64,000 nt of DNA from assembly GCF_028748185.1 (NCBI RefSeq), contig NZ_CP118164.1:4365814-4429813 (forward strand). Reading direction: 5' to 3'. Numbering within the stretch: the first letter of the stretch is position 1; each line of letters begins with the position of its first letter. Positions 43,052 to 60,352 of the stretch are shown here, in pieces. The position numbers and the translations under genes are program-made. Origin of the DNA: Bremerella sp. P1. Lineage in GTDB: Bacteria > Planctomycetota > Planctomycetia > Pirellulales > Pirellulaceae. Under the pieces are notes generated by a model, which saw only the letters and a program-made list of their open reading frames with translations, did no database searches and was not told the DNA's origin.

Positions 43052-43071
43052 GATTAGTTGGCGGCGTTCGA

Positions 43072-44086: not shown

Positions 44087-45666
44087 CCAGGACCAGAAGC
44101 AAACGCAACGAATCCCATCGCGACGTCGTCCGCTGCGCGATCTACACCCGGAAGTCCACTGAAGAAGGACTCGACCAGGAGTTCAACACGCTCGACGCCC
44201 AGCGAGAATCGGGCGAGGCGTACATCGTCAGCCAGCGTCACGAAGGCTGGGAGTGCCTTCCAGATCGCTACGACGACGGCGGGTTTACGGGCGGCAACAT
44301 GGACCGCCCCGCTCTGCGGCGACTGATGGCGGACATCGAGGCTGGCAAAGTCGACTGCGTGATCGTTTACAAGGTTGACCGGCTATCCCGTAGCCTGCTC
44401 GACTTCGCCCGGATCATGGAGACGTTTGATCGCCACAATGTGTCGTTCGTCTCCGTGACCCAGCAGTTCAATACGTCCACATCGATGGGGCGGTTGGTGT
44501 TGAACGTACTCTTGTCCTTCGCCCAATTTGAACGGGAGATCATCTCCGAGCGGACGCGCGACAAGATCGCCGCCGCACGTCGCAAGGGCAAATGGTCCGG
44601 TGGCATGCCGCTGCTGGGATACAACGTAGATCCGCAGGGTTCAAAGCTTGTGGTCAACGAGACCGAGGCCGACCGCGTGCGAGCGATCTTCAATCTCTAC
44701 TCCGAACACCAGTCGCTGCTCGCGGTGGTCGCCGAATTGGACGAACGGGGATGGGTCAACAAGCGGTGGACGACCAAGAAGGGAATTGAGCGCGGCGGGA
44801 AACGGTTCACCAAGACGAGCCTCCACAAGCTGCTGACCAACGTCACCTACATCGGAAAGCTTCGCTACAAGGACGAAGTCCACGACGGTGAGCACGAGGC
44901 GATCGTCAGTACCGACGTGTGGCAACGGGTCCAGTCGCTCCTGAGCCGGAATGGTCGAACGGGCGGAGCGGCGGTGCGGAACAAGTTCGGTGCCTTGCTT
45001 AAAGGCATCCTCCATTGTTCTGCGTGCGGGACCGCTATGTCTCCCTCGCATTCGACGAAGAACGGCAACAAGCGGTATCGCTACTACGTCTGCACGAACG
45101 CGCAGAAACGCGGCTGGCACAACTGTCCGTCGAAGTCGATTCCCGCGGGCGAGATCGAACGGTTCGTCGTGGAGCAGATCCGGGCCATTGGCCATGACCC
45201 TACGATGGTCCGCGACACGGTCGCGCAGGCGCGTTCACTGGGCCAGTCCGAACGATTGGGCCTGGAGTCCGAACTTCGCGGCGTCCGGCGCGACGTGGCG
45301 CACTGGGACGCCGAGGTTCGCGAACTGCTCCCGCAGGTTGAACCCGGCGACCGGGAGACGCCGGCCAGGAAGCGACTGGCCGATCTGCAAGAACGCATCC
45401 GAAGTGGCGAGCAACGGGCGACGGACATTCAGGAGCAGCTGCTCGCTCTGGATCGCACGATGATTGACGAAGCCGATGTTGCTGCGGCCCTCGCCAAGTT
45501 CGATCCGGTGTGGGAGGCACTCGCCCCGCGTGAACAAGTCCGCCTCATTGATCTACTAATTGAACGAATCGATTACGACGGCGGGACAGGCGACGTTTCG
45601 ATCGCTTTCCACGCTGCCGGTATTCGGCAACTGGCTGACCAAATCGAAACGGAGGACGCGGCATGA
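44083..45666 (+). CDS. large serine recombinase
   Basis: Site-specific recombinase of 527 residues that likely integrates or excises this element. The catalytic resolvase domain starts at VRCAIYTRKSTEEG (nucleophilic serine about residue 25) and includes VIVYKVDRLSRSLLDFARI. The Recombinase domain follows (GYNVDPQGSKLVVNE...). A zinc ribbon is visible in LHCSACGTAMSP and the later YYVCTNA...NCPSK, and a coiled-coil tail is present. All regions are intact, so it may be active. It is coupled by ATGA overlaps to both neighbours. Confidence 0.93.
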   Translation: MTRTRSKRNESHRDVVRCAIYTRKSTEEGLDQEFNTLDAQRESGEAYIVSQRHEGWECLPDRYDDGGFTGGNMDRPALRRLMADIEAGKVDCVIVYKVDRLSRSLLDFARIMETFDRHNVSFVSVTQQFNTSTSMGRLVLNVLLSFAQFEREIISERTRDKIAAARRKGKWSGGMPLLGYNVDPQGSKLVVNETEADRVRAIFNLYSEHQSLLAVVAELDERGWVNKRWTTKKGIERGGKRFTKTSLHKLLTNVTYIGKLRYKDEVHDGEHEAIVSTDVWQRVQSLLSRNGRTGGAAVRNKFGALLKGILHCSACGTAMSPSHSTKNGNKRYRYYVCTNAQKRGWHNCPSKSIPAGEIERFVVEQIRAIGHDPTMVRDTVAQARSLGQSERLGLESELRGVRRDVAHWDAEVRELLPQVEPGDRETPARKRLADLQERIRSGEQRATDIQEQLLALDRTMIDEADVAAALAKFDPVWEALAPREQVRLIDLLIERIDYDGGTGDVSIAFHAAGIRQLADQIETEDAA

Positions 45667-46118
45667 ACACGTCGATCAACTACCAATGCAAGCTGAAGTT
45701 CGAACGCCGAGGGCGCGGGGCACGCTTGTCGGCCCGCGTGGCGAATGACCAAGATGAATCCGAGTTGCCCAAAGGCCGAGTACCGCGTGTGGCCAGGCTG
45801 ATGGCTCTAGCCATTCGGTTCGAAGACCTGATCCGGCGAGGCGAGGTGAGGGACTACGCGGAGTTGGCGCGGCTCGCGCACGTCACGCGAGCCCGCATCA
45901 CCCAGATCATGAACCTGCGGTTGCTTGCTCCGGACATTCAGGAGGCGATTCTGTTTCTGCCGCGTTTTGAACGGGGACGTGACAGGATTGGATTGGCTCA
46001 GATTCAACCAATCGCTTTGACTGTTGACTGGAGGAAACAGCGTCAGCTTTGGCGACAACTCTCGTCCTCCAGCCTGAGTTTACCTCAGGTGCTTGTGAAC
46101 GGCGCACAAACCAGTTAA
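45663..46118 (+). CDS. HTH protein following the serine recombinase
   Basis: A 151-residue protein with a helix-turn-helix in the middle (DYAELARLAHVTRARITQIMN) and a basic N terminus. Genes of this kind follow DUF2924-linked recombinases and may set recombination directionality or regulate the cassette; no function is proven. Its start overlaps the recombinase stop as ATGA. The last codons include the CAAACCAGTTAAC sequence also found just after tRNA-Asn. Confidence 0.75.
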   Translation: MNTSINYQCKLKFERRGRGARLSARVANDQDESELPKGRVPRVARLMALAIRFEDLIRRGEVRDYAELARLAHVTRARITQIMNLRLLAPDIQEAILFLPRFERGRDRIGLAQIQPIALTVDWRKQRQLWRQLSSSSLSLPQVLVNGAQTS

Positions 46119-46127
46119 CATCCTGTT

Positions 46128-46140
46128 TGTTTACTGTTTA
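46128..46140 (+). promoter_or_regulatory. candidate operator TGTTTA-C-TGTTTA, copy 1
   Basis: Two TGTTTA hexamers in direct repeat with one base between them, directly before the eight-gene defence operon. The identical 13 bases recur at 58061-58073. A binding site for the operon's XRE regulator is a reasonable guess but unproven. Confidence 0.4.
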
Positions 46141-46170
46141 GTGATCGATGACCTTGGCGCAGGCGTTCGG

Positions 46171-47001
46171 ATGAACTGTTTTCAGCTGATAAAGACTGTT
46201 CTCGACGAGGCATACGCAGCGATTCCTGGTGATCCAGGCACAAAGGACGCGTCGATACGAGAGGCTCTCGCATCCTTGTCGAACGAATACCGAAGTCTCA
46301 CCAAAAAAGGCTGCTTGGATTACAGCGATCCTTGCCGTCGGTTCGCTTATATTTATCGCTATACCACGTCCCACGCCAATTTGGTTTACCGACTGATCGA
46401 AGGCACTGGCCAGCTTCGCACACTATTTGATGAGAACAAGGTCACCACCTCGTGTGTTGGCGGAGGTCCAGGGAGTGACTTTCTAGGGATTCTCAAGTAC
46501 TGCTTGAAAGCTGGAAAGACACCCGAACTTAAATGCCAGATTCTCGACCGAGATGCGTCATGGGGAGAGTCCTGGAGTGACGTTGACGACAAGCTCGGCC
46601 CATCCTTTCGAATCTCAACGGTATTTCATCCTCTTGATGTGACCGACGCTGCGACTTGGATGAAGTTCTCAAAGTACCTTCAAGCTGATCTCTTCACTTT
46701 GATTTACTTTATGTCCGAGGTCTATGCGCTGCGTGAACAAGCTAATGCCTATTTTGAAACTTTGATGGGATCAGCAAAGTCTGGTGCGTTGATGCTCTAT
46801 GTCGATAACAACTCACCGGGATTCGCATCTTGGTTCGACGAATTGGCAACGCGTCATGACTGGGCGATTGTAGCGGCAGATCAAGGCATGCAGAATCTCC
46901 CATTTGAGGAAGAAAAGACCGACCTGAGACCATACATTGACAAGTTTGATCCGCCCAAAATTCGCGCTGACGTCGCCTACAGGATTGCGCGAAAGCAATG
47001 A
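46171..47001 (+). CDS. Rossmann-fold methyltransferase-like protein
   Basis: About 276 residues. After a helical N-terminal domain comes a class I methyltransferase-like core. The glycine-rich loop is VGGGPGSDFLGIL, an acidic second strand reads CQILDRDASWGESW, and the later LFTLIYFMSEVYAL sits at motif IV. No DNA-methylation (N/D)PP(Y/F) signature is present, so the substrate is unlikely to be DNA in the hsdM manner. It overlaps the DUF1848 gene by four bases (ATGA), indicating a two-gene unit. The start may instead be the GTG at 46141, but that abuts the operator-like repeat. Confidence 0.65.
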   Translation: MNCFQLIKTVLDEAYAAIPGDPGTKDASIREALASLSNEYRSLTKKGCLDYSDPCRRFAYIYRYTTSHANLVYRLIEGTGQLRTLFDENKVTTSCVGGGPGSDFLGILKYCLKAGKTPELKCQILDRDASWGESWSDVDDKLGPSFRISTVFHPLDVTDAATWMKFSKYLQADLFTLIYFMSEVYALREQANAYFETLMGSAKSGALMLYVDNNSPGFASWFDELATRHDWAIVAADQGMQNLPFEEEKTDLRPYIDKFDPPKIRADVAYRIARKQ

Positions 47002-47933
47002 TCATCTCCGCCAGTTACAAGAATGATATCCCGACGTTCTACGGTGAGTGGTTCATGAATCGCTTGCGCGCCGGGTATTGCAGGATGGTCAATCCGTGGA
47101 ACCGAAAACAGATCAGCCGCGTGTCGCTCGAACTCGAGGATGTGGACGGAATCATTTTCTGGACGAAGAACATCGCCCCGTTTCTGCCAAACCTGAAGGA
47201 AGTTCACGAGCTCGGGTACCGTTTCGTCGTTCAGCACACGATCAACAATTATCCACGGGCACTGGAGTTCTCTGTGGTCGATGCCGACCGCAGCGTCCAG
47301 CACTTGCGCAAGGTTTCGGAAACGTATGGACCACGCACCTGTGTCTGGCGATACGACACGATCGTCATGTCTTCCCTGACACCGGCCGACTTTCACCGTG
47401 AGAACTTCTCGCAGCTGTGCGGCAAACTGGAAGGCGTCACTGACGAAGTGGTCGTGTCGTTTGCCCATCTGTATCAGAAGACTCTCCGGAACATGAACTG
47501 GGCGGGCGAAGAGTTTGGGTTCACCTGGCATGATCCGGACGCCGACGAGAAACGGGCCCTGTTGTTGGAACTGGTGCCGATCGCCAATGTTCATGGAATG
47601 CAGGTGACGGTCTGCTCACAGCCGGATCTGGTCGTGCCCGGGACCAATGAAGCCCGGTGCATCGACGCGGCACGGCTGGAAGAAGTTTCCGGGCGGACTA
47701 TCCGTGTTGAAAAACGTGGAGCCCGCAAGGAGTGCGGCTGCTTCGCGTCCAAGGACATCGGCGACTATGACACCTGCCCACATGGGTGCGTCTACTGTTA
47801 CGCGGTGCAAAACCGTAATCTGGCTCAGCGGCGTTACCACGAACATGACCCGGATTCCGAGTTCTTGTACCCAGTGCCGGGAGCGCCGGCGGATGAGCCG
47901 CGTCCGGACCCACAACGAAAACTCTTTGACTGA
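46998..47933 (+). CDS. DUF1848 protein, radical-SAM-like Fe-S enzyme
   Basis: A 311-residue protein of the DUF1848 family. The N-terminal half is a TIM-barrel-like region (IIFWTKNIAPFL, YRFVVQHTINNYP). The C terminus carries the family's cysteine signature: CGC near residue 245, then DTCPHGCVYCYA at about 257-268, a CxxxCxxC-type cluster that probably binds 4Fe-4S. Related SplB-like proteins perform radical SAM chemistry on nucleic acids; the DUF1848 substrate is unknown. It forms an overlapping pair with the methyltransferase-like gene. Confidence 0.8.
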   Translation: MIISASYKNDIPTFYGEWFMNRLRAGYCRMVNPWNRKQISRVSLELEDVDGIIFWTKNIAPFLPNLKEVHELGYRFVVQHTINNYPRALEFSVVDADRSVQHLRKVSETYGPRTCVWRYDTIVMSSLTPADFHRENFSQLCGKLEGVTDEVVVSFAHLYQKTLRNMNWAGEEFGFTWHDPDADEKRALLLELVPIANVHGMQVTVCSQPDLVVPGTNEARCIDAARLEEVSGRTIRVEKRGARKECGCFASKDIGDYDTCPHGCVYCYAVQNRNLAQRRYHEHDPDSEFLYPVPGAPADEPRPDPQRKLFD

Positions 47934-47976
47934 GTCGGAATGCGATGCGAAGCAGCGATGAAGGATCCCACACCCA

Positions 47977-50115
47977 ATGAATGGCAGTTCGTTTAAGGAT
48001 ATCGAAAAGCTGGAAGCCGACCTCTGGTCGGCAGCGGACAACCTGCGCGCGAATTCGAAGCTCACGTCGAGTGATTACTTCATGCCGGTCTTGGGGATCA
48101 TTTTTCTCCGTCATGCTGCCAATCGTTTTGACACGGCCACGAAGCAGATCGAAGAGGACAAAGCTGCGGGCAAAATGCCCAAGCGAAAGGTTATCGACCA
48201 GGACTACATTCGTCGCCGTGCCCTGCCGCTTCCAGAAGAGGCTCGTTACGACTGGATCATGACGATGGCGTCCAGTGGCGAGAAGGCTCTTCCGACGCTG
48301 GTCACGGACGCGATGAAAGCGATCGAGGAAAAGTTCGATCCGCTGAAGGGTGTCCTGCCGAAAGACTACGGAATCTTTGAGCCGCAGGTTCTCGAAGACT
48401 TGATGCGACTGTTTAACAGTGAGCAGATTCGCAGTGCCACGGGCGATGTGTTCGGCCGCATCTACGAGTACTTCCTGGCGCGGTTCTCCATTCAGAAAGC
48501 CCACGACAACGGCGAGTTCTTCACGCCGTCTTCGCTCGTGCAGATGATCGTCAACGTCATCGAGCCGGATCACGGCAAGGTCTTTGATCCAGCCTGCGGT
48601 TCCGGCGGGATGTTCGTGCAGTCCAGTCATTTCATCGAACACGAAGGTGGTGACACCGCGAAAAAGGTTGTGTTTTATGGGCAGGAGAAGAATCCGGACA
48701 CAATCCGCATCGCGCAGATGAACCTCGCCGTGCATGGTCTGACTGGCGAGATCGCCGAGGCCATCACCTACTACCAGGACGAACATAATCTGGTTGGTGG
48801 AGCCGACTTCGTGATGGCCAATCCTCCGTTCAACGTCGACCTCGTCGATGCGGAACGGATCAAGACGGATACGCAACGGCTGCCGTTCGGGCTGCCGGGC
48901 GTCAACAAGCAGAAAAAGGTCTCAAACGGCAACTACCTGTGGATTTCGTATTTCTGGAGCTACCTCAATGAGACGGGCCGGGCCGGCTTTGTCATGTCGT
49001 CGCAGGCCTCCAGTGGCGGCCACGGCGAGAAGGACGTCCGCGAGCGGATTGTGAAGACCGGCGACGTCGATGTGATGATGTCGATCCGGTCGAACTTCTT
49101 CTATACGCGGACGGTCCCCTGCGAGTTGTGGTTCTTCGATCGCGGTAAGCCGAACGAGCGTCGCGACAAAGTCCTGATGATCGATGCGCGGAACGTCTTC
49201 CGGAAGGTGAATCGCACGATCTGCGACTTCTCGCCGGAACAGATGGCAAACCTAAGTTCCATCGTCTGGTTGTACCGCGGTCAAAAGGACCGCTTCATCG
49301 CTCTGGTTCAAAGTTACCTGGTAGCGATCACGGCAGAGTGTGCAGCAATCCCGCCGGCCTTGGAGCAATTCGAGGCAACGCTGGCAGATCTCGAAGGGAA
49401 GTACAAAGCATTTGAAACGGCAATGCAGAGTTGTGAATCGCTGCCAGCCGAGTCGAAGGCATCGGTCGAGGAATCAGCACTGGAGCATCGTGAAGCCATC
49501 CAGCCTTACCGGAAGGATCGCAAGTCGTTGGATGCCGACCTTTCGGCGTTCGTGAAAGTGACAAACGGCAAACCTCCGGCAACCACTCGGCCACAGCAAA
49601 CAGCCCGCTCGAAGTTTGATCCACTTGCAGAACGCATTCGTGGCCTAATTAAGCAGATTGATCTGCTCTACAAGATTGCGGAACGAACACATGGTTACAT
49701 CGGGAAAATGCTCGCTGACGCGAATGACGATGCAAAAGAATCGCTCACTTACGATCGGCGTCAGATTGGTCGGGATCTGAAGCAGCTTGAGGTTCAACGG
49801 AGAGACGCCGTAGAGCAGTTGCGGCGAGCTGTGTATTTCCACCGGCAGGTGACGTGGCTATTGGAGCGTTTTCCAGAAGGCAAACTGACGGACGTGCCAG
49901 GATTGGTAAAAGTCACGGACCGGGATGACATCGAAGCTGCAGATTGGAGTCTTAGTCCCGCTAGATACGTTGGAGTCGCGCCTGCTGAGGTTGATGACGA
50001 TTTCGACTTTGATGAGACGATTCGCGACATTCACACAGAACTTGTAGATCTGAATGGTGAGGCTGTCGAGCTCGCGAAAGTGATTCACGTTAACTTCGAG
50101 GAGATGGGGCTGTGA
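47977..50115 (+). CDS. hsdM: type I restriction-modification methylase HsdM with helical insertion
   Basis: N6-adenine DNA methyltransferase of a type I system. The HsdM_N helical domain starts near residue 8. SAM motif I is FDPACGSGGMFV and catalytic motif IV is VMANPPFN, with the target-handling region after it. Canonical HsdM is about 500 residues; this one has 712. Residues about 427-650 form an extra, strongly helical, charged segment between the catalytic part and the HsdS-binding tail (IEAADWSLSPARYVG). It overlaps hsdS by four bases (GTGA). Confidence 0.93.
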   Translation: MNGSSFKDIEKLEADLWSAADNLRANSKLTSSDYFMPVLGIIFLRHAANRFDTATKQIEEDKAAGKMPKRKVIDQDYIRRRALPLPEEARYDWIMTMASSGEKALPTLVTDAMKAIEEKFDPLKGVLPKDYGIFEPQVLEDLMRLFNSEQIRSATGDVFGRIYEYFLARFSIQKAHDNGEFFTPSSLVQMIVNVIEPDHGKVFDPACGSGGMFVQSSHFIEHEGGDTAKKVVFYGQEKNPDTIRIAQMNLAVHGLTGEIAEAITYYQDEHNLVGGADFVMANPPFNVDLVDAERIKTDTQRLPFGLPGVNKQKKVSNGNYLWISYFWSYLNETGRAGFVMSSQASSGGHGEKDVRERIVKTGDVDVMMSIRSNFFYTRTVPCELWFFDRGKPNERRDKVLMIDARNVFRKVNRTICDFSPEQMANLSSIVWLYRGQKDRFIALVQSYLVAITAECAAIPPALEQFEATLADLEGKYKAFETAMQSCESLPAESKASVEESALEHREAIQPYRKDRKSLDADLSAFVKVTNGKPPATTRPQQTARSKFDPLAERIRGLIKQIDLLYKIAERTHGYIGKMLADANDDAKESLTYDRRQIGRDLKQLEVQRRDAVEQLRRAVYFHRQVTWLLERFPEGKLTDVPGLVKVTDRDDIEAADWSLSPARYVGVAPAEVDDDFDFDETIRDIHTELVDLNGEAVELAKVIHVNFEEMGL

Positions 50116-51341
50116 CATTTCCTCAAGTTAGCTTTGGCTCGCTCTACTCGGAACCAGTCAGGAATGGATTGACCCGACCGACTGCCGTGCGGGGCTCAGG
50201 TTATCGAATGGTCAATATGGGCGAGTTATTCGCCTATGACCGCATCGGCGGCCAACCGATGGAGAGAGTGCAACTAAATGAGCGTGAATTGACTGTCGCA
50301 ACACTAGAACAAGGCGATCTCCTATTTGCCCGATCTTCACTGAAGGTTGAGGGGACGGGAAAGTGCTCACTCGTCGTTTCACTTCCTGAAACTACGACAT
50401 TCGAATCGCATCTCATTCGCGCACGACTAGAGAGGACCAGAGCAGATTCGCGATTCTACTTCTACTTCTTTCAATCGTATGTTGGACGAGCCACAGTTCT
50501 CTCAATAGCAAAACAAGTTGGCGCCGCAGGGCTTGCGGGAAGCAAGTTGGCAGATCTCAAGGTGCCGCGGCCTCCCCTCGACACGCAGGTGAGGATTGCC
50601 GACGTCCTCACTGCCTATGACGACCTGATCGACAACAACCAGCAGCGCATGAGCTTGTTGGAAGAGTCGGCGCGGCTTCTCTTTGAAGAGTGGTTTGTCC
50701 GTCTCCGCTTTCCCGGGCACGAGCACACCCGGATCGTCAAGGGAATCCCCGAGGGTTGGGAACGTCGGCCACTGGGCGACTGCGCGAAGTTCCTTTCGGG
50801 TGGGACACCCAGGAAGTCGCGACCAGAGTTTTGGGAGGGACACATTCCCTGGATCAGTTCCAAAGAGATGACACAACTTCGCCTTCAGGATTCGTCACTT
50901 CGAGTCACTCAGGAGGGAGCAGAACAGGGAACCCGACTTGTCCCGACAAACACTATACTGGCCGTCGTTCGAGGGATGTCTCTGGCAAAAGAATTCCGTG
51001 TTGCCGTCTGTAGCCAACCGGTGACATTCAACCAAGACCTCAAGGCGCTTGTAGCCGTTTCAGACATTCGGCCTGAGTATCTCTTCGCTTCGCTCGTGTC
51101 ACAGCGTGATCAGATCCGCGATCGTGCCACAGAAGCCTCACATGGTACGAAGAAACTAGACACTCCGGTGTTGTCCGCAGTGCCGATCCTGGTCGCGCCG
51201 GAGCGACTTCAGCGAGCGTTCTGTGACTGGGTCGTTCCAATGAACAAACTCTGGGACAACTGCTGGCGACAGAATCAGAAGCTGCGCGAGGCACGCGACC
51301 TTCTGTTGCCGCGCCTAATGAGCGGGGAGGTGGCAGCATGA
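50112..51341 (+). CDS. hsdS: type I specificity subunit HsdS
   Basis: Target recognition subunit of 409 residues with two recognition domains, about 1-150 and about 215-370. They are separated by the conserved long helix that starts at QVRIADVLTAYDDLIDNNQQ and closed by a similar C-terminal helix (WVVPMNKLWDNCWRQNQKL). The two domains read different half-sites of a bipartite sequence; the motif is not predictable. GTG start overlapping the hsdM stop; its TGA overlaps the next ATG. Confidence 0.92.
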   Translation: MTFPQVSFGSLYSEPVRNGLTRPTAVRGSGYRMVNMGELFAYDRIGGQPMERVQLNERELTVATLEQGDLLFARSSLKVEGTGKCSLVVSLPETTTFESHLIRARLERTRADSRFYFYFFQSYVGRATVLSIAKQVGAAGLAGSKLADLKVPRPPLDTQVRIADVLTAYDDLIDNNQQRMSLLEESARLLFEEWFVRLRFPGHEHTRIVKGIPEGWERRPLGDCAKFLSGGTPRKSRPEFWEGHIPWISSKEMTQLRLQDSSLRVTQEGAEQGTRLVPTNTILAVVRGMSLAKEFRVAVCSQPVTFNQDLKALVAVSDIRPEYLFASLVSQRDQIRDRATEASHGTKKLDTPVLSAVPILVAPERLQRAFCDWVVPMNKLWDNCWRQNQKLREARDLLLPRLMSGEVAA

Positions 51342-53443
51342 AGGCCGAAGACGTCAGGCTCACACAACTGCTGGAAGGCCCGAAACAGTTCATCGTCCCG
51401 GTGTTCCAGCGAGATTACAGCTGGGGAACGAAGAACTGTCTGCAGCTGTGGAAAGACATCGTCCGGGTCGGCTCAGACGACAACGCGAAGGCGCACTTCG
51501 TCGGTTCCGTTGTCTACATCGCCGCCGAAGACACGTCCGCAAAGATCACACGCTGGCTGCTCATAGATGGCCAGCAGCGACTCACCACACTGGCGATTCT
51601 GCTGGCCGCGCTTCGGGACCATATCCCGGAAGATGAAGAGGATGAGGAACCTCACGACGAAGAGGGACTCCCCTCAAGAGTCGAGCTGGAGGACTACTAC
51701 CTGTGCAACATCCACGGGAAAGGCGACCGTCGTTACAAACTGCACCTCCGCCGCGCCGACCATGAATCGCTGACGGCAATGATGGACCGGAAGGATTTCC
51801 CGAAGGAATGCTCAGAACGGATTCGGGAGAACTTCGAGTTCTTCAACGAGCAGCTCGCCAACGCCGATCTGGATGTAGTCTATCGCGGAGTCAAGAAACT
51901 GGTGGCGGTCGACGTCTGCCTGACGCGCGGCCAGGACGATCCGCAGATGATCTTCGAGAGCCTGAACTCCACGGGGCTCGACCTGACACAGGCGGATCTG
52001 ATCCGCAACTTCGTGCTGATGCGTCAGGAGGAAGAGGTGCAGACGCAATTATACCACGACCACTGGCAGCCGATTGAGTTGGCGTTCGGTGCCAGATACC
52101 GTACCGACTTCGACAAGTTCGTCCGGGACTATCTGACGCTGCTGCTCCGTCCCAGCAAGCCCATCAAAGCCGACGAAATCTACCAGAACTTCCGGAACTA
52201 CTTTCACAGCGTCGCCAACGGTACATCAATCGAGGAGATCCTGGCGCGGCTGAAACGATTCGGCGAATACTATGTGGCCTTCATTCTTGGGCAGGAAACT
52301 CAGCCGAAACTGAAAGAGGCCTTTCGCCGCCTGCGTGGCCTAGTCGAAGTGGCATCACCGGTAATTCTGCGGCTGTATGACTGCCACGCCCACGCCAAGA
52401 CACTGTCGCTCGATGAATTTGTGGCGGCGGTTGAGATTCTGGAAAGCTATGTCTTTCGCCGCTCGGTCTGTGCCATGCAGACCCGGAGTCTCGGCCAGAT
52501 CTTCGCATCCCTCGCGGCTCGCATTCGCGACGACGCTCCTCTGCTAAGTCTGGAGGTGTCGCTGTACCGGCAAGGGAAGAAGCGACGATTCCCGACCGAT
52601 GCAGAGTTCCGCGAAGCGCTGGAGACGCGAGATGTCTACGACATGCGTCATTGCCACTACCTGCTGGATCGGATCGAAAACGACAGTAAGGAGAAGATCG
52701 ACACGTCGGAATTCACGATCGAGCACGTAATGCCTCAAAATGAAGATCTGCGTCCGGAATGGCAGGCGATGCTCGGTGCCAACTGGCAGTCGATTCGCGA
52801 GGTGTGGTTGCATCGGCTCGGGAACATCACGCTGACGGCGTACAACCCAGAGTACAGCGACCGTCCGTTCGACGAGAAAAAGACCATCGACAACGGGTTC
52901 CTCGACAGTCCGCTGCGGCTGAACAAGTACATTCGCGAACAGACAAAGTGGACACCTCTCGAGATGGAGGCCAGGGGCAAAGACCTGACGGCGCGTGCGA
53001 TCAAGGTGTGGCCAGCCCTGGTGGTGGATCTGGAGGCTGTACGGGCAGCAGAGCTGGAGGAAAGGAAAGCAACGGCAGCCAAGTACAGCGTCGACAAGCT
53101 GGACATGGACCCGGTCAGCAAGGAGCTTTTCGATGCGTTGCGCCCACATGTGCTCTCGATGGGTGAGGATGTAGTCGAGTTGTGCGGTCCGAAGAGTATC
53201 ACGTACCGAGTCTATGACTTCTTCATGGAAGTGGTCCCCCGGAAACAGAGGCTGGCGCTGATTCTCAACCTCGATTTTGCCGAGTGCGAGGATCCAACGC
53301 AGCGAGCAGTCGATGCGACCGAGTATGCATTCATTCCCAATGCCTCGGAGAATGGAGGAGTGTTGTTCAGCATTGTGACTGAAGACCAGGTTTCAGCCGC
53401 ATTGCACGTGATCCGGCAGGCGTACGAAAAGGTTTCGGAGTAG
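51338..53443 (+). CDS. DUF262/DUF1524 (GmrSD-like) nuclease with DUF5655-like tail
   Basis: A 701-residue single-chain GmrSD-type protein. The DUF262 part has VPVFQRDYSW (about residues 20-30) and LIDGQQRLTTLAILL (about 75-90), a ParB-like nucleotide-hydrolysing core. DUF1524 has TIEHVMPQNE (about 460) and HRLGNITLTAYN (about 490), the His-Me-type nuclease site. The last 110 residues look like DUF5655. GmrSD enzymes cut glucosyl-hydroxymethylcytosine-containing phage DNA. It sits between hsdS and hsdR, overlapping hsdS as ATGA and ending five bases before hsdR, so it is an integral part of the operon. Confidence 0.88.
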   Translation: MKAEDVRLTQLLEGPKQFIVPVFQRDYSWGTKNCLQLWKDIVRVGSDDNAKAHFVGSVVYIAAEDTSAKITRWLLIDGQQRLTTLAILLAALRDHIPEDEEDEEPHDEEGLPSRVELEDYYLCNIHGKGDRRYKLHLRRADHESLTAMMDRKDFPKECSERIRENFEFFNEQLANADLDVVYRGVKKLVAVDVCLTRGQDDPQMIFESLNSTGLDLTQADLIRNFVLMRQEEEVQTQLYHDHWQPIELAFGARYRTDFDKFVRDYLTLLLRPSKPIKADEIYQNFRNYFHSVANGTSIEEILARLKRFGEYYVAFILGQETQPKLKEAFRRLRGLVEVASPVILRLYDCHAHAKTLSLDEFVAAVEILESYVFRRSVCAMQTRSLGQIFASLAARIRDDAPLLSLEVSLYRQGKKRRFPTDAEFREALETRDVYDMRHCHYLLDRIENDSKEKIDTSEFTIEHVMPQNEDLRPEWQAMLGANWQSIREVWLHRLGNITLTAYNPEYSDRPFDEKKTIDNGFLDSPLRLNKYIREQTKWTPLEMEARGKDLTARAIKVWPALVVDLEAVRAAELEERKATAAKYSVDKLDMDPVSKELFDALRPHVLSMGEDVVELCGPKSITYRVYDFFMEVVPRKQRLALILNLDFAECEDPTQRAVDATEYAFIPNASENGGVLFSIVTEDQVSAALHVIRQAYEKVSE

Positions 53444-53448
53444 CAGCG

Positions 53449-56400
53449 ATGGCGATCACCGGCATCAACAGTGAAGATCGGCTGGTCCAGAAGACCTTCG
53501 CGGACTACCTGCATCAACAGCTGGGCTGGGAGAGCGTTTATGCCTGGAATGACGAGACATTTGGCCCAACCGGGACGCTGGGACGAACCACCGAACGCGA
53601 TGCGATTCTGCTTCGAGATTTGCGGGATGCGATCACAAGACTCAACCCGCAACTGCCGGAATCGGCCCGCGACGAAGCTCTCCACAAGCTGACTCAGGTC
53701 GACTACGCCCGGTCGCTTGCTCAGCACAACCAGCAGTTCTTCAAGTACATCCGGGACGGCGTTCCGGTCACGTGGCGTGACTCAAATGATGAGATGCAGC
53801 ATGACCATGCCCGTGTGATTGATTTCCGGAACGGTCAGACGAATGGCGTGCCGAACAATCGTTTTGTCGCCGTCCGAGAGTTGAAGATTCAAGGGCTCCG
53901 GGTGCCGCACTACAACCGCCGTGCGGACCTGGTCTGTTTCGTGAATGGCCTGCCGCTTGTGTTCATCGAGCTGAAAGCCGTTTACCGAAACATCCGTCAG
54001 GGTTTCGACAACAATCTGACCGACTACCTGACCGAGCAGGTCATCCCGCATGCCTTCCACCACAACGTGTTTCTGGTCGTCAGCAACGGTGACCGTGCAC
54101 GGTACGGCTCCGTCACCAGCGACTGGGAGCACTTCGCTGAGTGGAAACGTAACGACGAGAAGCAAAAGGGAGAACTGGACGCGAAGGTTCTGCTGGACGG
54201 CATGTTGGCGAAGGATCGGCTTCTGGACATCATCGAGAACTTCATCCTGTTCGATGACAGCCGGCCAGGCGGCACTCGGAAGATCGTTGCTCGCAATCAT
54301 CAGGTGCTGGGCGTCAACAACGCTGTCGGCTCTGTGATGAAGCAGGAAGAGCTGAAGGAACAGTTTCCGCCGGAGAAACGACTGGAGTACCGGATCGCGA
54401 CAGTCGAGTTACCGGAGTCCGAACTCTCCGAAGCAGATCAGATGCTTTTGGAGGCTGGTGAGGAACCAAAGACTGAAATCGCCAAGCGACCGAAGAAGCG
54501 ACCGCGAGTGCTCGAATTGCCGCTTGTCGAACGAGCGCATCCGGACCTTGGACGGCTCGGGGTGTTCTGGCACACACAGGGCAGCGGCAAGTCGTACTCC
54601 ATGGCCTTCTTCGCCCAGAAGGTCCGACGCATGGTCCGCGGCAATTTTACGTTTGTGATCATGACGGATCGCGAAGACCTCGATGACCAGATCTTCCGAA
54701 CATTCGTGGGATGTGGCGTTGCCGACGAAAAGACTCCCCGGGCCGGTTCCGGCAAAGAACTGAAGGCGCTCTTGCAGGAGAACCACCGCTTCATTTTCAG
54801 CCTGGTCCACAAGTTCAATCAAAACGTCAGCCCGGACGAGCCGTACAGCACACGCGATGACATTATCGTGATCTCGGACGAAGCGCATCGAACACAGGCT
54901 GGTAAACTGGCCCGTAACATGAGGCTGGCGCTTCCGAATGCTTCCTTCATCGGCTTCACTGGTACACCGCTCTTCAAACATGACCACATTACGAAGCGAA
55001 TCTTTGGAACGTACGTCTCGAAGTACGACTTCAAGCGGTCTGAGGAAGATCACTCCACTGTCCGGCTGGTCTATGAAAACCGGGGCGAGAAGCTGGGGCT
55101 CGCGCGATTGGACTTGAACGACCGGATTGCCGAGAAGGTCGCTGAGGCCGATCTGGATCAGGATCAGACTGCCCTGCTCGAGAAGCTTCTCGGCAAGGAT
55201 TACGAGGTCATCACTGCCGACGATCGGCTGGACAAGTTGGCCGAGGATTTTGTCGAACATTGCTCGACGCGATGGCAGTCTGGAAAGTCAATGTTCGTTT
55301 GCGTCGACAAGATCACCTGCGCTCGTATGTACGAACGGATCATTCCTCGATGGAACGATCGCATCCTACAACTGCGTGCACAGATCCCCATTGCCGAAGC
55401 TCAGCTTCAGGCAACCACGAGTGACGATCTTCGCGAGAAACGCGCAGACGAACTTGCAGAACTGCATCAGCGGATCGCGTGGATGGAATCCACAATCATC
55501 GAGATCATCATCAGCGAAGCGCAGAACGAGGTGAAAGACTTCCAGAAATGGAACTTTGACATCGTGCCCCACCGCGAACGGATCAAACGAGGATTCACTG
55601 ACGCGAGTGGACAGAATCTGAGTGTAGAGGATGCATTCAAGTCACCGAAACATCCTTTCCGGGTTGCGGTCGTCTGTGCGATGTGGCTTACAGGGTTCGA
55701 CGTCGAATGTCTGTCAACTCTGTACATCGACAAGCCCATGAAGGCCCACACTCTGATGCAGGCAATTGCCCGAGCCAACCGTGTGTATCCGGGCAAGGAC
55801 TGTGGCGTCATCGTCGACTACAACGGAATGTTGAAGAGTCTGCGGAAAGCACTCGCGCAGTATGCCGTAGGAGACGATGAGGCCACGCCGCCGGATGAGG
55901 TGGTCGAGCCGATTGAGAATCTTGTCGCGTCATTGGTTGATGCCCTTGATGCGGCAGAAGACCACTTGCGCGGACTCGGATTCGATCCAGCGCGTTTCGA
56001 TGGAGCGAGTGGCTTCGATCGAATCTCTGCAATTCGGGATGGTGCCGACGCGGTCTGCGTGACGGACGAGGCAAAGCGCCGGTTCGAGATAATGGCGAGG
56101 GAAGTCTTCAATCGGTTTAAGGCACTTCTAACCGAACCGAGCGCATTTCAATACGCGTTGCGGCACGACAATCTCGAAGCGATCTACAAGAAGCTGGAAG
56201 AGAAGCGGGACACTGCTGATGTCACTGCCGTCCTGAAGGAACTGCATCGTGTCGTGAATGAGGCAATCCGGGCTGCAGGCCCTGGCGAGGACCATGCCGA
56301 GGGACTGACAATCGACCTGAGTCAGATCGACTTTGAAAAGCTGAAGGAGGAGTTCAAGCAAGTGCGCCGGAAAAACACGGCGTTACAAGACATTCGAGAC

Positions 56401-56910
56401 GTCGTTGAAAGAAAGCTCCAGGCGATGGTGAATACGAATCCATTGATGATGGATTACTACCGCAGGTACCAGGAGATAATTGCGGACTACAACCGCGAAA
56501 AGGACAGAACAACAGTCGAGCAGACGTTCGCGGCGCTTGTCGCTCTCGCCGCGAGTCTTGATGAGGAGCAGCAGCGGGCCGTCGAGGAGGGGTTGTCTCC
56601 CGAGGAAATGGCGATCTTCGACCTTCTCAAACGAGACACTCTGACGAAAGGAGACCGGGAGAGAGTAAAGCAGGCCAGTAAAGCGTTGCTTCTGAGTATT
56701 CGCGACCTCTTGGCACCGATGGACCTTTGGACTCGAAATGCACAGACACAGGCCGAAGTCCAGACTTCGATTCTTGATTGGTTGTACGAAACCTTGCCGC
56801 AACCGCCCTTCACTGAAAAAGACACGAGCGATCTGGCGGAGCGGCTATATGAACATGTGTGGCAACAGAGTGAGGCGGGTATTTTGACTTCGGGCCCCAC
56901 CCAATCATGA
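53449..56910 (+). CDS. hsdR: type I restriction subunit HsdR
   Basis: ATP-dependent translocase and nuclease of the type I system, 1,153 residues. The N-terminal PD-(D/E)XK nuclease is visible as NRRADLVCFVNGLPLVFIEL followed by K (about 154-175). The SF2 motor has Walker A WHTQGSGKSYS (about 370), DEAH box VISDEAHRTQ (about 475), motif III GFTGTPLF and the C-terminal lobe with WLTGFDVECLSTLY and QAIARANRVYPGK. The helical C terminus anchors to the methylase. All parts look intact. Overlaps the XRE gene as ATGA. Confidence 0.94.
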   Translation: MAITGINSEDRLVQKTFADYLHQQLGWESVYAWNDETFGPTGTLGRTTERDAILLRDLRDAITRLNPQLPESARDEALHKLTQVDYARSLAQHNQQFFKYIRDGVPVTWRDSNDEMQHDHARVIDFRNGQTNGVPNNRFVAVRELKIQGLRVPHYNRRADLVCFVNGLPLVFIELKAVYRNIRQGFDNNLTDYLTEQVIPHAFHHNVFLVVSNGDRARYGSVTSDWEHFAEWKRNDEKQKGELDAKVLLDGMLAKDRLLDIIENFILFDDSRPGGTRKIVARNHQVLGVNNAVGSVMKQEELKEQFPPEKRLEYRIATVELPESELSEADQMLLEAGEEPKTEIAKRPKKRPRVLELPLVERAHPDLGRLGVFWHTQGSGKSYSMAFFAQKVRRMVRGNFTFVIMTDREDLDDQIFRTFVGCGVADEKTPRAGSGKELKALLQENHRFIFSLVHKFNQNVSPDEPYSTRDDIIVISDEAHRTQAGKLARNMRLALPNASFIGFTGTPLFKHDHITKRIFGTYVSKYDFKRSEEDHSTVRLVYENRGEKLGLARLDLNDRIAEKVAEADLDQDQTALLEKLLGKDYEVITADDRLDKLAEDFVEHCSTRWQSGKSMFVCVDKITCARMYERIIPRWNDRILQLRAQIPIAEAQLQATTSDDLREKRADELAELHQRIAWMESTIIEIIISEAQNEVKDFQKWNFDIVPHRERIKRGFTDASGQNLSVEDAFKSPKHPFRVAVVCAMWLTGFDVECLSTLYIDKPMKAHTLMQAIARANRVYPGKDCGVIVDYNGMLKSLRKALAQYAVGDDEATPPDEVVEPIENLVASLVDALDAAEDHLRGLGFDPARFDGASGFDRISAIRDGADAVCVTDEAKRRFEIMAREVFNRFKALLTEPSAFQYALRHDNLEAIYKKLEEKRDTADVTAVLKELHRVVNEAIRAAGPGEDHAEGLTIDLSQIDFEKLKEEFKQVRRKNTALQDIRDVVERKLQAMVNTNPLMMDYYRRYQEIIADYNREKDRTTVEQTFAALVALAASLDEEQQRAVEEGLSPEEMAIFDLLKRDTLTKGDRERVKQASKALLLSIRDLLAPMDLWTRNAQTQAEVQTSILDWLYETLPQPPFTEKDTSDLAERLYEHVWQQSEAGILTSGPTQS

Positions 56911-57266
56911 CACGTACCGTTAACAAATTTGGCAAGATACTTCGCGCTCGCAGGCTCGAAATGAAGTTTAGTCTGCGCACATTCGCCAAGATGTCGGGCG
57001 TAAGCCCCACGTATCTCTCCCAGGTGGAACAAGGCAATGTGGATCCGCCTACGGCGGAGCGGGTTTCTCGGATGGCCGAGCTTTTGGAAGCGAACGTTGA
57101 CGAGTGGATCTCGCTGGCCGGACGTGTCCCTGAAGATTTGCCGGAGATTATCCAGAGGAACCCGACCGCGATGCCGGAGCTGCTCCGCGAGGCAAATGGT
57201 CTGACTGCCGAGCAGTTGAAGAAGTTGATCGAAGGTGCACGCAAGATGAAGGAAAAGAAGGGGTAG
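56907..57266 (+). CDS. XRE-family regulator
   Basis: A 119-residue protein with a lambda-repressor-like HTH at about residues 8-62 (FGKILRARRLEMKFSLRTFA, then VSPTYLSQVEQGNVDPP) and a helical tail. It overlaps the hsdR stop and lies six bases before the metallopeptidase gene, the classic XRE-ImmA pair. It probably represses the defence operon, with TGTTTA-C-TGTTTA as a possible site. Confidence 0.9.
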   Translation: MTRTVNKFGKILRARRLEMKFSLRTFAKMSGVSPTYLSQVEQGNVDPPTAERVSRMAELLEANVDEWISLAGRVPEDLPEIIQRNPTAMPELLREANGLTAEQLKKLIEGARKMKEKKG

Positions 57267-57271
57267 AGCCG

Positions 57272-58024
57272 ATGCCGCGACGCGCGAGTACGACGCGGAA
57301 GGAGCCGTATTTCACCAAGCAGCAACTCGAGGATGAAGCTAACTGCCTGCTGCACAAGTATGGCGAGGAACATGATCGCGTCGTTGAGCCGCCCGTGCCG
57401 ATCGACGACATCGTCGAACTTCACCTCGGGCTGACCTTCGAGTTCAAGGACATGCAGGCGCTGTTCGGCGTCGCGGATGTCCACGGTGCGTTGTGGGTTA
57501 ATGACCGGATCGTCGGAGTTGACCTCAGTCTCGATCCGCACGAGAACCCAGCGATGCTCGGTCGCTACCACTTCACGCTTGCTCACGAGGTGGGCCACTG
57601 GCAGCTGCATCGCCACCTATACCAGAGTCGCGCCAATCAACTGTCGCTTCTTCCCGAGGCGGAAGATCGCGCCGAGTACGTTTGCCGGTCGAGCGACAAG
57701 AGCCCGCTGGAGTGGCAGGCGAATTACTTCGCTGCCGCCCTACTGATGCCGCCGGAAATGGTGCGATCAGTGTGGCGCGAGCTTCATGGCGAACTGGATC
57801 CGATCTACTTGGAAGACTTGGACAAGAATCGAGACGCGATCTTGAACGAGGAGAGCCAGCGGCGTGGTGGTTACTCGGTGCCCGAAGACCGAATTCCCAA
57901 CATCTTGCTGGAGCATGCCGCCCTTCCGTTGGCCGAGAAATTCCAGGTTTCGGCAGAAGCCATGCGGATCCGTCTGGAGGAGCTGGGGCTTCTGAAACGG
58001 AAAAAAGAGAATTTGCTGTTCTAG
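57272..58024 (+). CDS. ImmA/IrrE-family metallopeptidase
   Basis: A 250-residue zinc peptidase with the HExxH site in FTLAHEVGHWQLH (about residue 103). A second acidic helix, EWQANYFAAALLMP, supplies the third ligand region. ImmA cleaves the phage-like repressor ImmR in Bacillus ICEBs1, and IrrE cleaves DdrO in Deinococcus. By analogy this protein would inactivate the XRE protein encoded just upstream and de-repress the operon. The C terminus is a helical domain of about 90 residues. Confidence 0.9.
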   Translation: MPRRASTTRKEPYFTKQQLEDEANCLLHKYGEEHDRVVEPPVPIDDIVELHLGLTFEFKDMQALFGVADVHGALWVNDRIVGVDLSLDPHENPAMLGRYHFTLAHEVGHWQLHRHLYQSRANQLSLLPEAEDRAEYVCRSSDKSPLEWQANYFAAALLMPPEMVRSVWRELHGELDPIYLEDLDKNRDAILNEESQRRGGYSVPEDRIPNILLEHAALPLAEKFQVSAEAMRIRLEELGLLKRKKENLLF

Positions 58025-58060
58025 CCGACTGTTCACGTCAGGCAATTTCTGTATGCTAGC

Positions 58061-58073
58061 TGTTTACTGTTTA
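58061..58073 (+). promoter_or_regulatory. candidate operator TGTTTA-C-TGTTTA, copy 2
   Basis: Identical to the element at 46128-46140. Here it lies after the ImmA gene and about 80 bases before the next start codon, in a 129-base gap. It would suit common control of the downstream pair of genes. Confidence 0.4.
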
Positions 58074-58153
58074 TGGTACACGGACGCCCGCCGGGACAGA
58101 CGGACGACCGGTTTCGTTTAACCCCAGCGCCACAGGCAAGGGAGTGAAAAACC

Positions 58154-59344
58154 ATGGCAACGTTCCGACTCCGCCATTTCTCGAGCCCGCACGTTCTGCG
58201 GGGAATCTCGCCCGAACGACTGCTGTCGTTTCTCGGGCCATATCGCGAGTTCTTTCAGTCTCGCGACTACGAACTACCAACGGATGCCACCGAGGAGATC
58301 GACTACGAGGGGCTCGTTAGCATCTTCATGACGCCGACCGAGGACTCGCCCGGAGAACTGCTCGATGCGCTCTTCCTGGTCGACGAAATGTCGACGCCGT
58401 TCAGCATGGCGACACTCATTGATATCGCTGAGGAGGCGGGCTACGAGCTCGAGGATGGTGACGACCACACGCCGGCCGATATCGCGATTCAGATCTGGTT
58501 GCTTGATCCCGATATTCTCGAGCGTAAGCACGCTGAGCAGTTTCTGTTCAAACGGAAGTCGTTCGAGTACTTCCAGTCGGCGAATGACCCTCCACCAGAG
58601 TTTCCTGGCTTCCCTGCCGCGACGCGACGCCGCATGGAACAGGAAATGAACGACTGGTTCGAGTCGAAGAAGCGAGGGCGCGGGGTCCGGGTGTTTGCCT
58701 ATCCAGACGAAAACGAGGTCCGGTTCCTGGTTCGACACGGTGAGCCGTTCAAGCGTGAAGAGACAATGAGCGGGGCGGATGTCGGCAGCGTCTGTTACCG
58801 GCCCCTCAAGTACGACGTTGTGGTCTACGATCGGCGAGTCGGCGAATTGCGTATCAACGCCAGCCTGGTTGGCGAGAAGCGATTCTATCGGCAGCAGTTT
58901 GGGAAACACATCTTCGGGGACGCTGATCATTTTCCAGGGAACGCGAAGTACACGCTCGAACCCCTGCGAGAATACGGCGCGGCGTCGTTGAACTGCTTTG
59001 AGGTCGATGAGATCGAATCGATCCGACTGACTGAGGTTCAGTTCCTTTCTGGTGGCCCGCACGGTTTGGTCGAGATCCTCAAGGCTTCCGACGTCTTCTC
59101 CGCCTTGGCTGATGCCGGACGTGACTTTCCAGAGCGAGACCGGATCATCAAGGCTGGATTCAAAGTCAAGTTCGCCGACTCTAAGACGCCTAGGTCCGTG
59201 AAGATCCGGCCGGCGAACATCGCCGACTACACCCGCGATGCCGACGCGAACGCGGTCGAACGTTGGCTCGCACTGCGGGGCTTCATCATCAACCAGGAGG
59301 CTGAGCAGCACGGTGAAGTCGCACAGACTGTGGCGGGCACTTGA
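58154..59344 (+). CDS. unrecognised island protein (396 aa)
   Basis: Soluble acidic protein without a family I can name. The N-terminal 130 residues are helical and acidic (EIDYEGLVSIFMTPTEDSPG...). The second half alternates short strands (VRFLVRHGEPFKRE, VVVYDRRVGELRINASLVGE) and ends in a helix-rich tail. No nuclease, ATPase or methyltransferase motif is visible. A ribosome binding site is weak (GGGAG 14 bases upstream). It is coupled to the next gene, whose start lies inside its 3' end, so the two probably work together. Confidence 0.65.
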   Translation: MATFRLRHFSSPHVLRGISPERLLSFLGPYREFFQSRDYELPTDATEEIDYEGLVSIFMTPTEDSPGELLDALFLVDEMSTPFSMATLIDIAEEAGYELEDGDDHTPADIAIQIWLLDPDILERKHAEQFLFKRKSFEYFQSANDPPPEFPGFPAATRRRMEQEMNDWFESKKRGRGVRVFAYPDENEVRFLVRHGEPFKREETMSGADVGSVCYRPLKYDVVVYDRRVGELRINASLVGEKRFYRQQFGKHIFGDADHFPGNAKYTLEPLREYGAASLNCFEVDEIESIRLTEVQFLSGGPHGLVEILKASDVFSALADAGRDFPERDRIIKAGFKVKFADSKTPRSVKIRPANIADYTRDADANAVERWLALRGFIINQEAEQHGEVAQTVAGT

Positions 59345-60233
59345 TCAAGTGCCGTTGGGCCAAGCTGTGCTGACCGAATGGGAGTCGTTGCTCGGCAGCG
59401 ACTTTGATTCCACGCGTTCCCTGCTTGGTTCGGCGGACAAGATCGCTGGCTATTATCCCGCGCCGAATTCGAGGGATCTGCCATGGCGTGTCGTTGAGCA
59501 TTGCCAGGATGATTTTGTGGCCGTCTGTGACCAGAGCGGTGACACGATTCCTCTGCGCAGACGCGACGTCGTTGTCTTCTCGCTGGACTTTCGTCGGCTG
59601 GCCAAAGAGCTCGCGGCCGCGTTCGAGTTCGCTCCAGCGTTCGACCCGATTCACGGTGTACCCCGGTGCTGGCGCGTCGGGACGATGGCCAAGTCCGGCG
59701 CTCCGGCGTTGCCAGTGCATCTTGTTGTTCCTGCTGGTTCCGGCGACCTTCGACGGGCCGTGGAATCCATCCGAGCAGCCGGCTTGGAACCAGGATCAAT
59801 TCTGGTGCCAACACGAACCAGCGTGACGCCCGCCATCGAGACACTGCTGAACTTGAACAGGGCGAGACTGATTGTGCTTGAGGAGACGCTCGTTGCCCGC
59901 AAATCAGATAGCTGGGAGCGGGCTGGTGCGTCTGGTCCTCCCATCGATGGTCACCCGACTTCGACCGCAGCGGACATCCCATTGAGCGAACGGGCCCAGG
60001 CACTATTGATCGCACTCCACGAGATGAACGCATTGGATTCCGATAGCCGTAAATCGAACGCCGAAGTGACAGGACGCGCTTTCGGCCCACTAGCAGATCC
60101 GAACGCCCAGAAACGCGTTTGGGGCAAGCTGCGAAAAGCGAAGTACGTCGAATCAAAAGAAGGAAGTGATGGCGGATACTGGTTGACCGACAGTGGCGCG
60201 ATGCGGGCGCGTCGACTTGGCGAGTCGATGTAA
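59313..60233 (+). CDS. unrecognised island protein (306 aa) with winged-helix-like C terminus
   Basis: I start at the GTG at 59313, which has AGGAGG 12 bases upstream and overlaps the previous gene by 32 bases. The longer frame from 59238 reads low-complexity antisense-like sequence. The N-terminal half is of unknown fold (DDFVAVCDQSGDTIPLRRRD). The C-terminal 90 residues (LLIALHEMNALDSDSRKSNA, then WGKLRKAKYVESKEGSDGGY) look like a winged helix. Function unknown; operon partner of the 396-residue protein. Confidence 0.6.
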   Translation: MKSHRLWRALDQVPLGQAVLTEWESLLGSDFDSTRSLLGSADKIAGYYPAPNSRDLPWRVVEHCQDDFVAVCDQSGDTIPLRRRDVVVFSLDFRRLAKELAAAFEFAPAFDPIHGVPRCWRVGTMAKSGAPALPVHLVVPAGSGDLRRAVESIRAAGLEPGSILVPTRTSVTPAIETLLNLNRARLIVLEETLVARKSDSWERAGASGPPIDGHPTSTAADIPLSERAQALLIALHEMNALDSDSRKSNAEVTGRAFGPLADPNAQKRVWGKLRKAKYVESKEGSDGGYWLTDSGAMRARRLGESM

Positions 60234-60292
60234 CCGATTGGGCACCGTTCGGACTCCGATCGCGCACCGATTAAAACGGCCAATTCAGCGAG

Positions 60293-60349: not shown

Positions 60350-60352
60350 GAA

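Follow-up and report, generated by a model that had tools for sequence, protein, structure and literature searches.

We analysed a 64-kb stretch (hereafter, the window) of the 6.96-Mb genome of Bremerella sp. P1, which carries, at 46171-58024, eight genes with the layout of one operon: a methyltransferase-like (MT) gene, a DUF1848 gene, the hsdM, hsdS, and hsdR genes of a type I restriction-modification (R-M) system with a GmrSD-like nuclease gene among them, and genes for an XRE repressor and an ImmA/IrrE peptidase. The operon lies in a prophage, its outer genes recur in three other planctomycete elements with differing restriction cores or accessory nucleases, and a 13-bp sequence, TGTTTACTGTTYA, forms a pair of sites around it. 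We consider it probable that the operon is cargo on the lysogeny side of a temperate phage, in which a candidate XRE site would couple the repressor and the defence genes.

The prophage frame and its changing core

The insertion site is a tRNA-Asn (gtt) gene, located by ARAGORN at 41465-41538 on the plus strand. The chromosomal match with six of the eight other genomes of the genus ends at 41538-41544, the 3′ end of this tRNA, which forms the left edge of the prophage. The match with G1060 ends at 41612, and that with G1059, which bears a prophage of its own, ends at 41788. The segment inserted after the tRNA runs beyond the end of the window and holds integrase, packaging, head, and tail genes; it is a prophage. 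Its first part consists of three genes on the plus strand, encoding a DUF2924 protein (43589-44086; PF11149, E 3.2e-41), a large serine integrase (44083-45666; Resolvase, Recombinase, and Zn_ribbon domains; phrog_95 integrase, E 2.5e-125), and the 151-residue recombinase-associated protein g0b (45663-46118; phrog_14161 “recombinase”, E 8.6e-20; no Pfam match). These genes overlap one another by 4 bases, and the trio ends 52 bases before gene 1 of the operon. On the far side, also on the plus strand, are genes for a phage sigma-factor-like protein (60657-61526) and a phage PDDEXK exonuclease (61905-62984), and for a Sak4-like single-stranded DNA annealing protein (62981-63784). The operon is therefore placed between the serine integrase and the phage early genes. 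The 25 kb past the window encode exonuclease V, a primase, a ParB-DNA methyltransferase, the terminase, the head protease/major head protein, a head decoration protein, the major tail protein, and the tape measure protein.

The eight open reading frames (ORFs) of the operon are all on the plus strand, with successive gaps of −4, 43, −4, −4, 5, −4, and 5 bases, and hence four 4-base overlaps. Gene 1 (MT; 46171-47001) matches Methyltransf_34 with an E value of 3.7e-5, under the curated Pfam cut-off, and contains the motif GGGPGSD. It is followed by the DUF1848 gene (46998-47933; Pfam DUF1848, E 3e-90). HsdM (47977-50115) has the HsdM_N and N6_Mtase domains (PF02384, E 3e-69), with the S-adenosylmethionine (SAM) motif DPACGSG and NPPF, and HsdS (50112-51341) has two target-recognition stretches, both matching Methylase_S (PF01420). 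The GmrSD-like protein (51338-53443) combines GmrSD_N, GmrSD_C, and DUF5655 in a single chain; it contains QR, DGQQR, FESLN, and HVMP, and agrees with the pattern of DUF262 (QR, DGQQR, FxxxN) joined to DUF1524 (His-Me finger). HsdR (53449-56910) has the HSDR_N and SWI2_SNF2 domains and the nuclease and translocase motifs GSGKS, DEAH, and D..ELK. The adjacent last two genes encode the XRE protein (56907-57266; HTH_3) and ImmA (57272-58024; Peptidase_M78, with the HEXXH-type motif HEVGH). PADLOC also recognizes the seven proteins after gene 1. The motifs GGGPGSD, DPACGSG, NPPF, QR, DGQQR, FESLN, HVMP, GSGKS, DEAH, D..ELK, and HEVGH presumably have their usual meanings here. As HsdM, HsdS, and HsdR all carry the motifs of their families, they are predicted to methylate and cut DNA at a bipartite site, and the GmrSD-like protein is, by its motifs, a single-chain enzyme of type IV kind predicted to cut DNA containing modified cytosine. 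The GmrSD motif list is that of PMC11411939. An earlier, sequence-only reading of this DNA had described the eight genes as codirectional and tightly spaced, which the gaps of −4 to 43 bases bear out, and as having the look of one transcript, which we uphold as an appearance. Its gene identities agree with Pfam, PADLOC, and our motif reading, while the prophage setting had escaped it.

The front DUF2924-integrase-g0b-MT-DUF1848 occurs in five loci: the window, L007/L011, L014, L015, and L092. The XRE-ImmA pair closes all four loci that are readable to the end (the window, L007, L015, and L092); in L014, the contig edge comes after DUF1848. L092 belongs to G1059, the carrier of the same genus, and the other two complete loci belong to the genomes G111 and G395. 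Between these ends, the cores differ. In the window the core is hsdM-hsdS-GmrSD-hsdR, in which a single gene separates hsdS from hsdR. The hsd genes of L007 belong to the same family (identities of 52, 53, and 48%), and its GmrSD slot is occupied by a PLD-like and an Mrr-like gene. L015 has a different type I system and a DUF5655/NucS-like gene, and L092 has an EcoEI-type hsdR, two small genes that match nothing in Pfam, hsdM, and one more ORF, assigned as hsdS from its position only. The window and L092 share 73% identity in the integrase, 66% in MT, 65% in DUF1848, 63% in XRE, and 58% in ImmA, as compared to 27%, over a part of the protein, in HsdM. The cores thus differ inside a constant frame, and between hsdS and hsdR lies a variable slot, occupied by GmrSD in the window and by other nucleases in the nearest relative. 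The sequence-only reading had taken the eight genes as a set combination, to be given up if homologous hsdMSR loci were to lack the other genes. L007 is such a locus, with hsdM-hsdS-hsdR between the same ends and other genes in place of GmrSD; in L015 and L092, the type I systems themselves are different. These three cores exclude a fixed system of eight genes, and GmrSD as an obligate part is likewise rejected.

The elements around these loci are also related. The G1059 element occupies the same tRNA with the same gene order, and its blastn blocks with the window's prophage extend from 41607 to 93723, with an interruption across the R-M core (47864-56970). G111 matches the window's prophage in the exonuclease (71%), Sak4 (69%), and exonuclease V (52%), and G395 matches it in the terminase (63%) and the ParB-methyltransferase (71%). 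These early or packaging gene matches indicate that both elements belong to the same kind of phage as the window's.

Other features of the frame were recorded. A perfect inverted repeat with two 9-base arms and a 7-base spacer (43245-43269) lies upstream of the DUF2924 gene and is conserved in L092; it is also listed as terminator-like, and could be an operator, a terminator, or a recombination site. Within this genus, the trio has further copies apart from MT, namely L094 (G000:C1:4474961-4476551, in the window's own genome, G000), L095 (5752093), L093 in G1058, L096 in G1060, L097 in G1059, and L098 in G333, and none of them has an MT, DUF1848, XRE, or ImmA match within the 20 kb read. The L093 copy is accompanied by another type I R-M set. 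A gene beginning with MAKPF follows ImmA in L007, L015/L069, and L092, and its relatives (27-30% identity to the L007 gene) stand divergently beside the trio in L093, L094, L095, and L096. In the window, the first gene downstream of the operon (58154-59344, plus strand) encodes a 396-residue protein that matches neither Pfam nor PHROGs; we rejected it as a common downstream gene, as it is unrelated to the gene in L092 (E 0.43).

A 13-bp site at both ends of the operon

When the intergenic gaps were read side by side, TGTTTACTGTTYA was found before MT and again after ImmA. Operator candidate 1 (TGTTTACTGTTTA, 46128-46140, plus strand) lies 30 bases before the ATG of gene 1, and operator candidate 2 (TGTTTACTGTTTA, 58061-58073, plus strand) lies between ImmA and the next gene set. 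Exact copies genome-wide number three in the window's genome, two of them at the operon ends, two in G1059, both at the operon ends, one in G111, before MT, and none in G395; the expected count is 0.18 per genome, calculated from the base composition of the window only. The exact site is absent from the seven other genomes of the genus, and the reversed control pattern occurs twice in G1056 and not at all in the other eight of the nine genus genomes. The seven site-free genomes have no full MT match (in G333, a partial match covers 64 positions with E 3.9e-4), and their best XRE match has an E value of 2.9e-11, as compared to 2.6e-63 and 4.1e-64 in the two carriers. Distant XRE relatives (E 1e-12 to 4e-8) were seen at other places in the genus, at G000:C1:3663931-3664248 and in G1057, G1060, G327, and G1056.

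The site was also compared among the relatives, in the 150 bases preceding MT. Where XRE-ImmA is present, the closest match departs from the site at 0, 0, 0, and 2 positions in the four loci; in L013, L014, L016, L017, and L022, where no XRE-ImmA was seen, it departs at 5 or 6. This comparison left out L012, L018, L019, L053, L054, L065, L067, and L068. After ImmA, the best match has 0, 0, 1, and 3 mismatches in the four complete loci. Both operon ends therefore carry the site in all four, in exact or nearly exact form in three and in degenerate form in L015. We propose that TGTTTACTGTTYA is likely the XRE operator, a candidate site at the starts of both the operon and the early genes. The suggestion of the sequence-only reading, that XRE-ImmA could switch the whole set, gains support from this common site.

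MT and its DUF1848 or AlkB partners

The MT gene is present in 4 of the 392 genomes of the phylum, including the window's (one of the four is doubtful), and two short patterns found it at seven loci in a scan of 84,980 species, one genome each. The first MT alignment, used to scan viral sequences, yielded none among 255 candidates, and a class-level search around a Burkholderiales genome yielded 1 of 369, that genome itself. We left out a match in G018 (E 1.9e-4, within a 526-residue frame, with no neighbour match) and a plasmid match, H2, from Calothrix. Neither MT nor DUF1848 has a PHROGs or NCBIfam match.

A partner gene stands beside MT in all 17 loci: DUF1848 in nine, an AlkB-type gene in six, and both in two. 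The loci were found via MT, except for L018 (via DUF1848) and L092 (via the integrase); L022 was found via both MT and DUF1848. DUF1848 is the partner in the window, G111, G114/L013, L014, L015, L016, L017, L022, and L092, and no AlkB match was found in the eight of these outside the window. AlkB is the partner in L012, L019, L065, L067, L053, and L054. Both partners are present in the cyanobacterial loci L018 and L068, in which a distant MT relative and AlkB share one strand and DUF1848 converges from the other. In an Acidobacteria contig (L016:3724-4529), the MT gene is split between two frames, reflecting a broken gene or a sequencing error.

The surroundings of the pair vary. The Burkholderiales locus L017 (7112-17418) has the order hsdM-hsdS-MT-DUF1848, a 183-residue protein gene, an AlbA-domain gene (SLFN_AlbA_2/RecG-C-like), and hsdR; L013 has an HsdS-like stretch before MT, and then the contig ends; and in L019, the MT pair lies about 2 kb before a methylase gene. 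On the IMG/VR contigs L022, L053, and L054, MT-DUF1848 or MT-AlkB occurs, and the stretch read contains no R-M match; in L022, this stretch is 9.5 kb, with an MT-DUF1848 pair adjacent to an integrase-like ORF, as read by eye. The idea that DUF1848 is an R-M subunit was rejected because of the L022 contig.

In a tree of 38 DUF1848 rows, nine MT-linked rows fall into one clade of ten (100/99), and none of 500 label shuffles needs as few changes. The tenth row, L109, shows no MT over the 0.9 kb that precedes its DUF1848 gene, and L018 and L068 are outside the clade. The tree omitted L101, L102, and L104, which have stops in their ranges, L116-L127, and the near-copy or distant viral loci L025, L026, L037-L041, L043-L045, and L047-L051; alignment A6 omitted L050.

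Next, we consider the predicted folds. All nine members of alignment A4 match Methyltransf_34 and no other family at E 0.01, and the model of MT resembles the METTL17/Rsm22 fold, as judged from the VIA list only. METTL17 and Rsm22 have conserved Fe-S cysteines. MT differs from them in that no cysteine is found among the invariant or nearly invariant columns of the 11-row alignment A5, in its occurrence on phage contigs and plasmids, and in its DUF1848 or AlkB partner. The DUF1848 model shows a radical-SAM-like barrel, and a CX3CX2C motif (C260, C264, and C267) is invariant in a 29-row alignment. In radical-SAM enzymes (MqnE, Elp3, BioB, NifB, PFL-AE, RlmN, and Cfr, by fold), the motif is N-terminal, after the first strand; in DUF1848 it is not there and lies at residues 260-267 of 311, with an apparently permuted order of the barrel. 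In the VIA second look, residue 1 of the model aligns to target residue 71 or higher in 21 of 22 rows (26 in 9cg2). The Foldseek rows for DUF1848 were weak with other barrels leading, and the radical-SAM rows rose only in this second look. A sequence search of the PDB gave three weak matches for DUF1848 and none for MT. The combination of a radical-SAM-like barrel and a C-terminal CX3CX2C thus suggests that DUF1848 is a permuted radical-SAM enzyme, as predicted from the model.

What might the pair do? In the least certain part of our proposal, MT-DUF1848 would be a separate two-enzyme unit acting on nucleic acid. Its likeliest substrate would be a base methyl mark or lesion, because an AlkB dealkylase can replace the putative radical-SAM enzyme DUF1848 beside MT; it might protect phage DNA, host RNA, or the restriction target. 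Alternatively, the pair may be a phage anti-restriction or self-marking unit rather than one for repair or RNA modification, altering the phage DNA so that the host's or the phage's own nucleases spare it. The occurrence of MT-DUF1848 or MT-AlkB on L022, L053, and L054, the IMG/VR contigs in which no R-M match was found over the stretch read, speaks for such a role, which is compatible with lysogeny-side cargo; we regard it as a possibility below an even chance. With similar reserve, we suggest a broader idea, that MT with DUF1848 or AlkB is a new two-enzyme unit of phages and other mobile elements, composed of an RNA- or DNA-directed methyltransferase-like protein and an interchangeable reversal enzyme (the oxygen-dependent AlkB or the permuted radical-SAM DUF1848). 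In some prophages, this unit and the repressor-peptidase pair would be the lasting frame within which restriction systems are exchanged, and one repressor site would couple lysogeny, defence, and mark.

Proposed control and relation to known systems

We propose the following course for the lysogeny-side cargo. The XRE protein would bind both TGTTTACTGTTYA sites. At the first site, it would set the expression of its own operon, jointly transcribed as a whole, so that the lysogen produces the defence proteins along with the repressor; at the second site, it would hold down the early lytic genes. In the lysogen, HsdMSR would cut unmodified incoming phage DNA, and GmrSD would cut base-modified phage DNA. 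Upon DNA damage, ImmA would cleave XRE, and the phage would be released.

Several observations weigh against this proposal. Regarding the prophage, the DNA alignment with G1059 also fails at 58095-60244 and 61838-70794, so that the R-M core is not the sole break; the reading of head and tail genes covers G000 and G1059 only, and the G111 contig ends before that part; and the last 20 bases of tRNA-Asn have no second copy on the plus strand up to about 80 kb past the window. Regarding the site, the third exact copy in the window's genome lies within a coding region elsewhere, and in the window alone the count at up to two mismatches is ordinary (2 found, 1.0 expected). L015 has degenerate sites, with shuffle p values of 0.003 and 0.013, L014 carries the front and yet has no site (6 mismatches), and the contigs of L013, L014, and L016 end too early to show any XRE-ImmA. 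The gene following operator candidate 2 differs in L092, and a promoter scan of 43000-60500 found no sigma-70 consensus (5.3 expected). Regarding the pair, a type I system is close by in only seven of the 17 loci (L013, L017, L019, and the four prophages); the adjacency in L018 is not independent, as this locus was found by the DUF1848 search; and of the 36 among 392 phylum genomes with DUF1848, 33 have no MT match, indicating that DUF1848 has other uses.

The main alternative concerns the regulator. XRE and ImmA match PADLOC capH (E 1.1e-8) and capP (E 2.2e-19), and could form a dedicated controller of the CapH/CapP type, which would keep the defence off until ImmA cleaves XRE after DNA damage inflicted by a phage, with the second site controlling a further defence gene (58154). 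CapH-CapP works in this manner for CBASS (PMC10904395, PMC10233336), and a regulated type I island with a peptidase, RptR-R-M-DarTG-M48, is also on record (PMC12255303). However, XRE-ImmA is near phage early genes in all four complete loci, XRE also matches phage repressor families (phrog_3, E 9.8e-10), and modification subunits that are off until an attack would risk self-cutting. We consider a dedicated controller rather unlikely. Given that the locus occupies the lysogeny side of a prophage, the roles of phage repressor and anti-repressor are no less likely for XRE-ImmA than that of a dedicated switch for defence. Plain stacking of defence genes in a prophage cargo slot, with their own promoters, no joint control, and a 13-bp site that serves the integrase or another phage protein, would fit the frequent GmrSD-type genes in type I loci (Machnicka 2015) and the differing cores of the relatives, but is improbable in view of the four 4-base overlaps among the eight genes, the frame kept while the core changes, and L014, which has the integrase trio without the site.

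The four elements with one frame and different restriction cores are a natural series for testing directly how the phage repressor and restriction are linked. DUF1848 gains a testable chemistry and a partner, MT, that it has in common with AlkB.

How does the operon compare with known systems? In the VPI-2 island of Vibrio cholerae, the GmrSD-family TgvAB lies inside a type I R-M operon between hsdS and hsdR (PMC11411939), and this precedent supports the view of the sequence-only reading that GmrSD is a type IV partner of the type I system. In both cases, a GmrSD-family enzyme sits within a type I operon, and unmodified and modified DNA are both covered, in the window by prediction. In contrast, VPI-2 is a pathogenicity island with two proteins, TgvA (DUF262 only) and TgvB, while the window has one gene for a single-chain GmrSD-like protein, and so not TgvAB proper, in a prophage with MT-DUF1848 and XRE-ImmA ends. 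The neighbourhoods of GmrSD are rich in type I genes, and RloF of Campylobacter jejuni is a DUF262 gene in type I loci (PMC4619093, PMC11411939). The GmrSD-like protein also matches PADLOC HEC-06; what it has in common with RloF and HEC-06 is that a DUF262 gene sits inside a type I locus or some other defence locus. The available descriptions of RloF in these two papers include no MT-DUF1848 or XRE-ImmA frame.

The RptR-R-M-DarTG2-M48 island of enteropathogenic Escherichia coli likewise has a regulated type I operon into which a second system is embedded, along with a gene for a metallopeptidase, and differs in its repressor RptR, its M48 peptidase, and its insertion-sequence flanks in place of a prophage lysogeny region (PMC12255303). 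Switches composed of an XRE repressor and a following HEXXH peptidase are known on mobile elements, as ImmR-ImmA of ICEBs1 and TnSmu1 (PMC10233336), and in defence operons, as CapH-CapP for CBASS (PMC10904395). Unlike these, the window's pair closes a prophage restriction operon with a candidate site at both ends. DUF1848 also matches PADLOC RTasDUF1848 (E 8e-45), listed under DRT, reverse-transcriptase defence, and a defence link of the family is therefore already in a database; here, by contrast, no reverse transcriptase is among the genes scanned, and the partner is MT. In the literature library searched, no paper names DUF1848, and none joins an AlkB dioxygenase, a prophage, a methyltransferase, and type I restriction. 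GmrSD embedded in a type I R-M system is already published, for VPI-2 and RloF; judging by that library, the apparently new features are the prophage frame, the pair of sites, and the swap between DUF1848 and AlkB as the partner.

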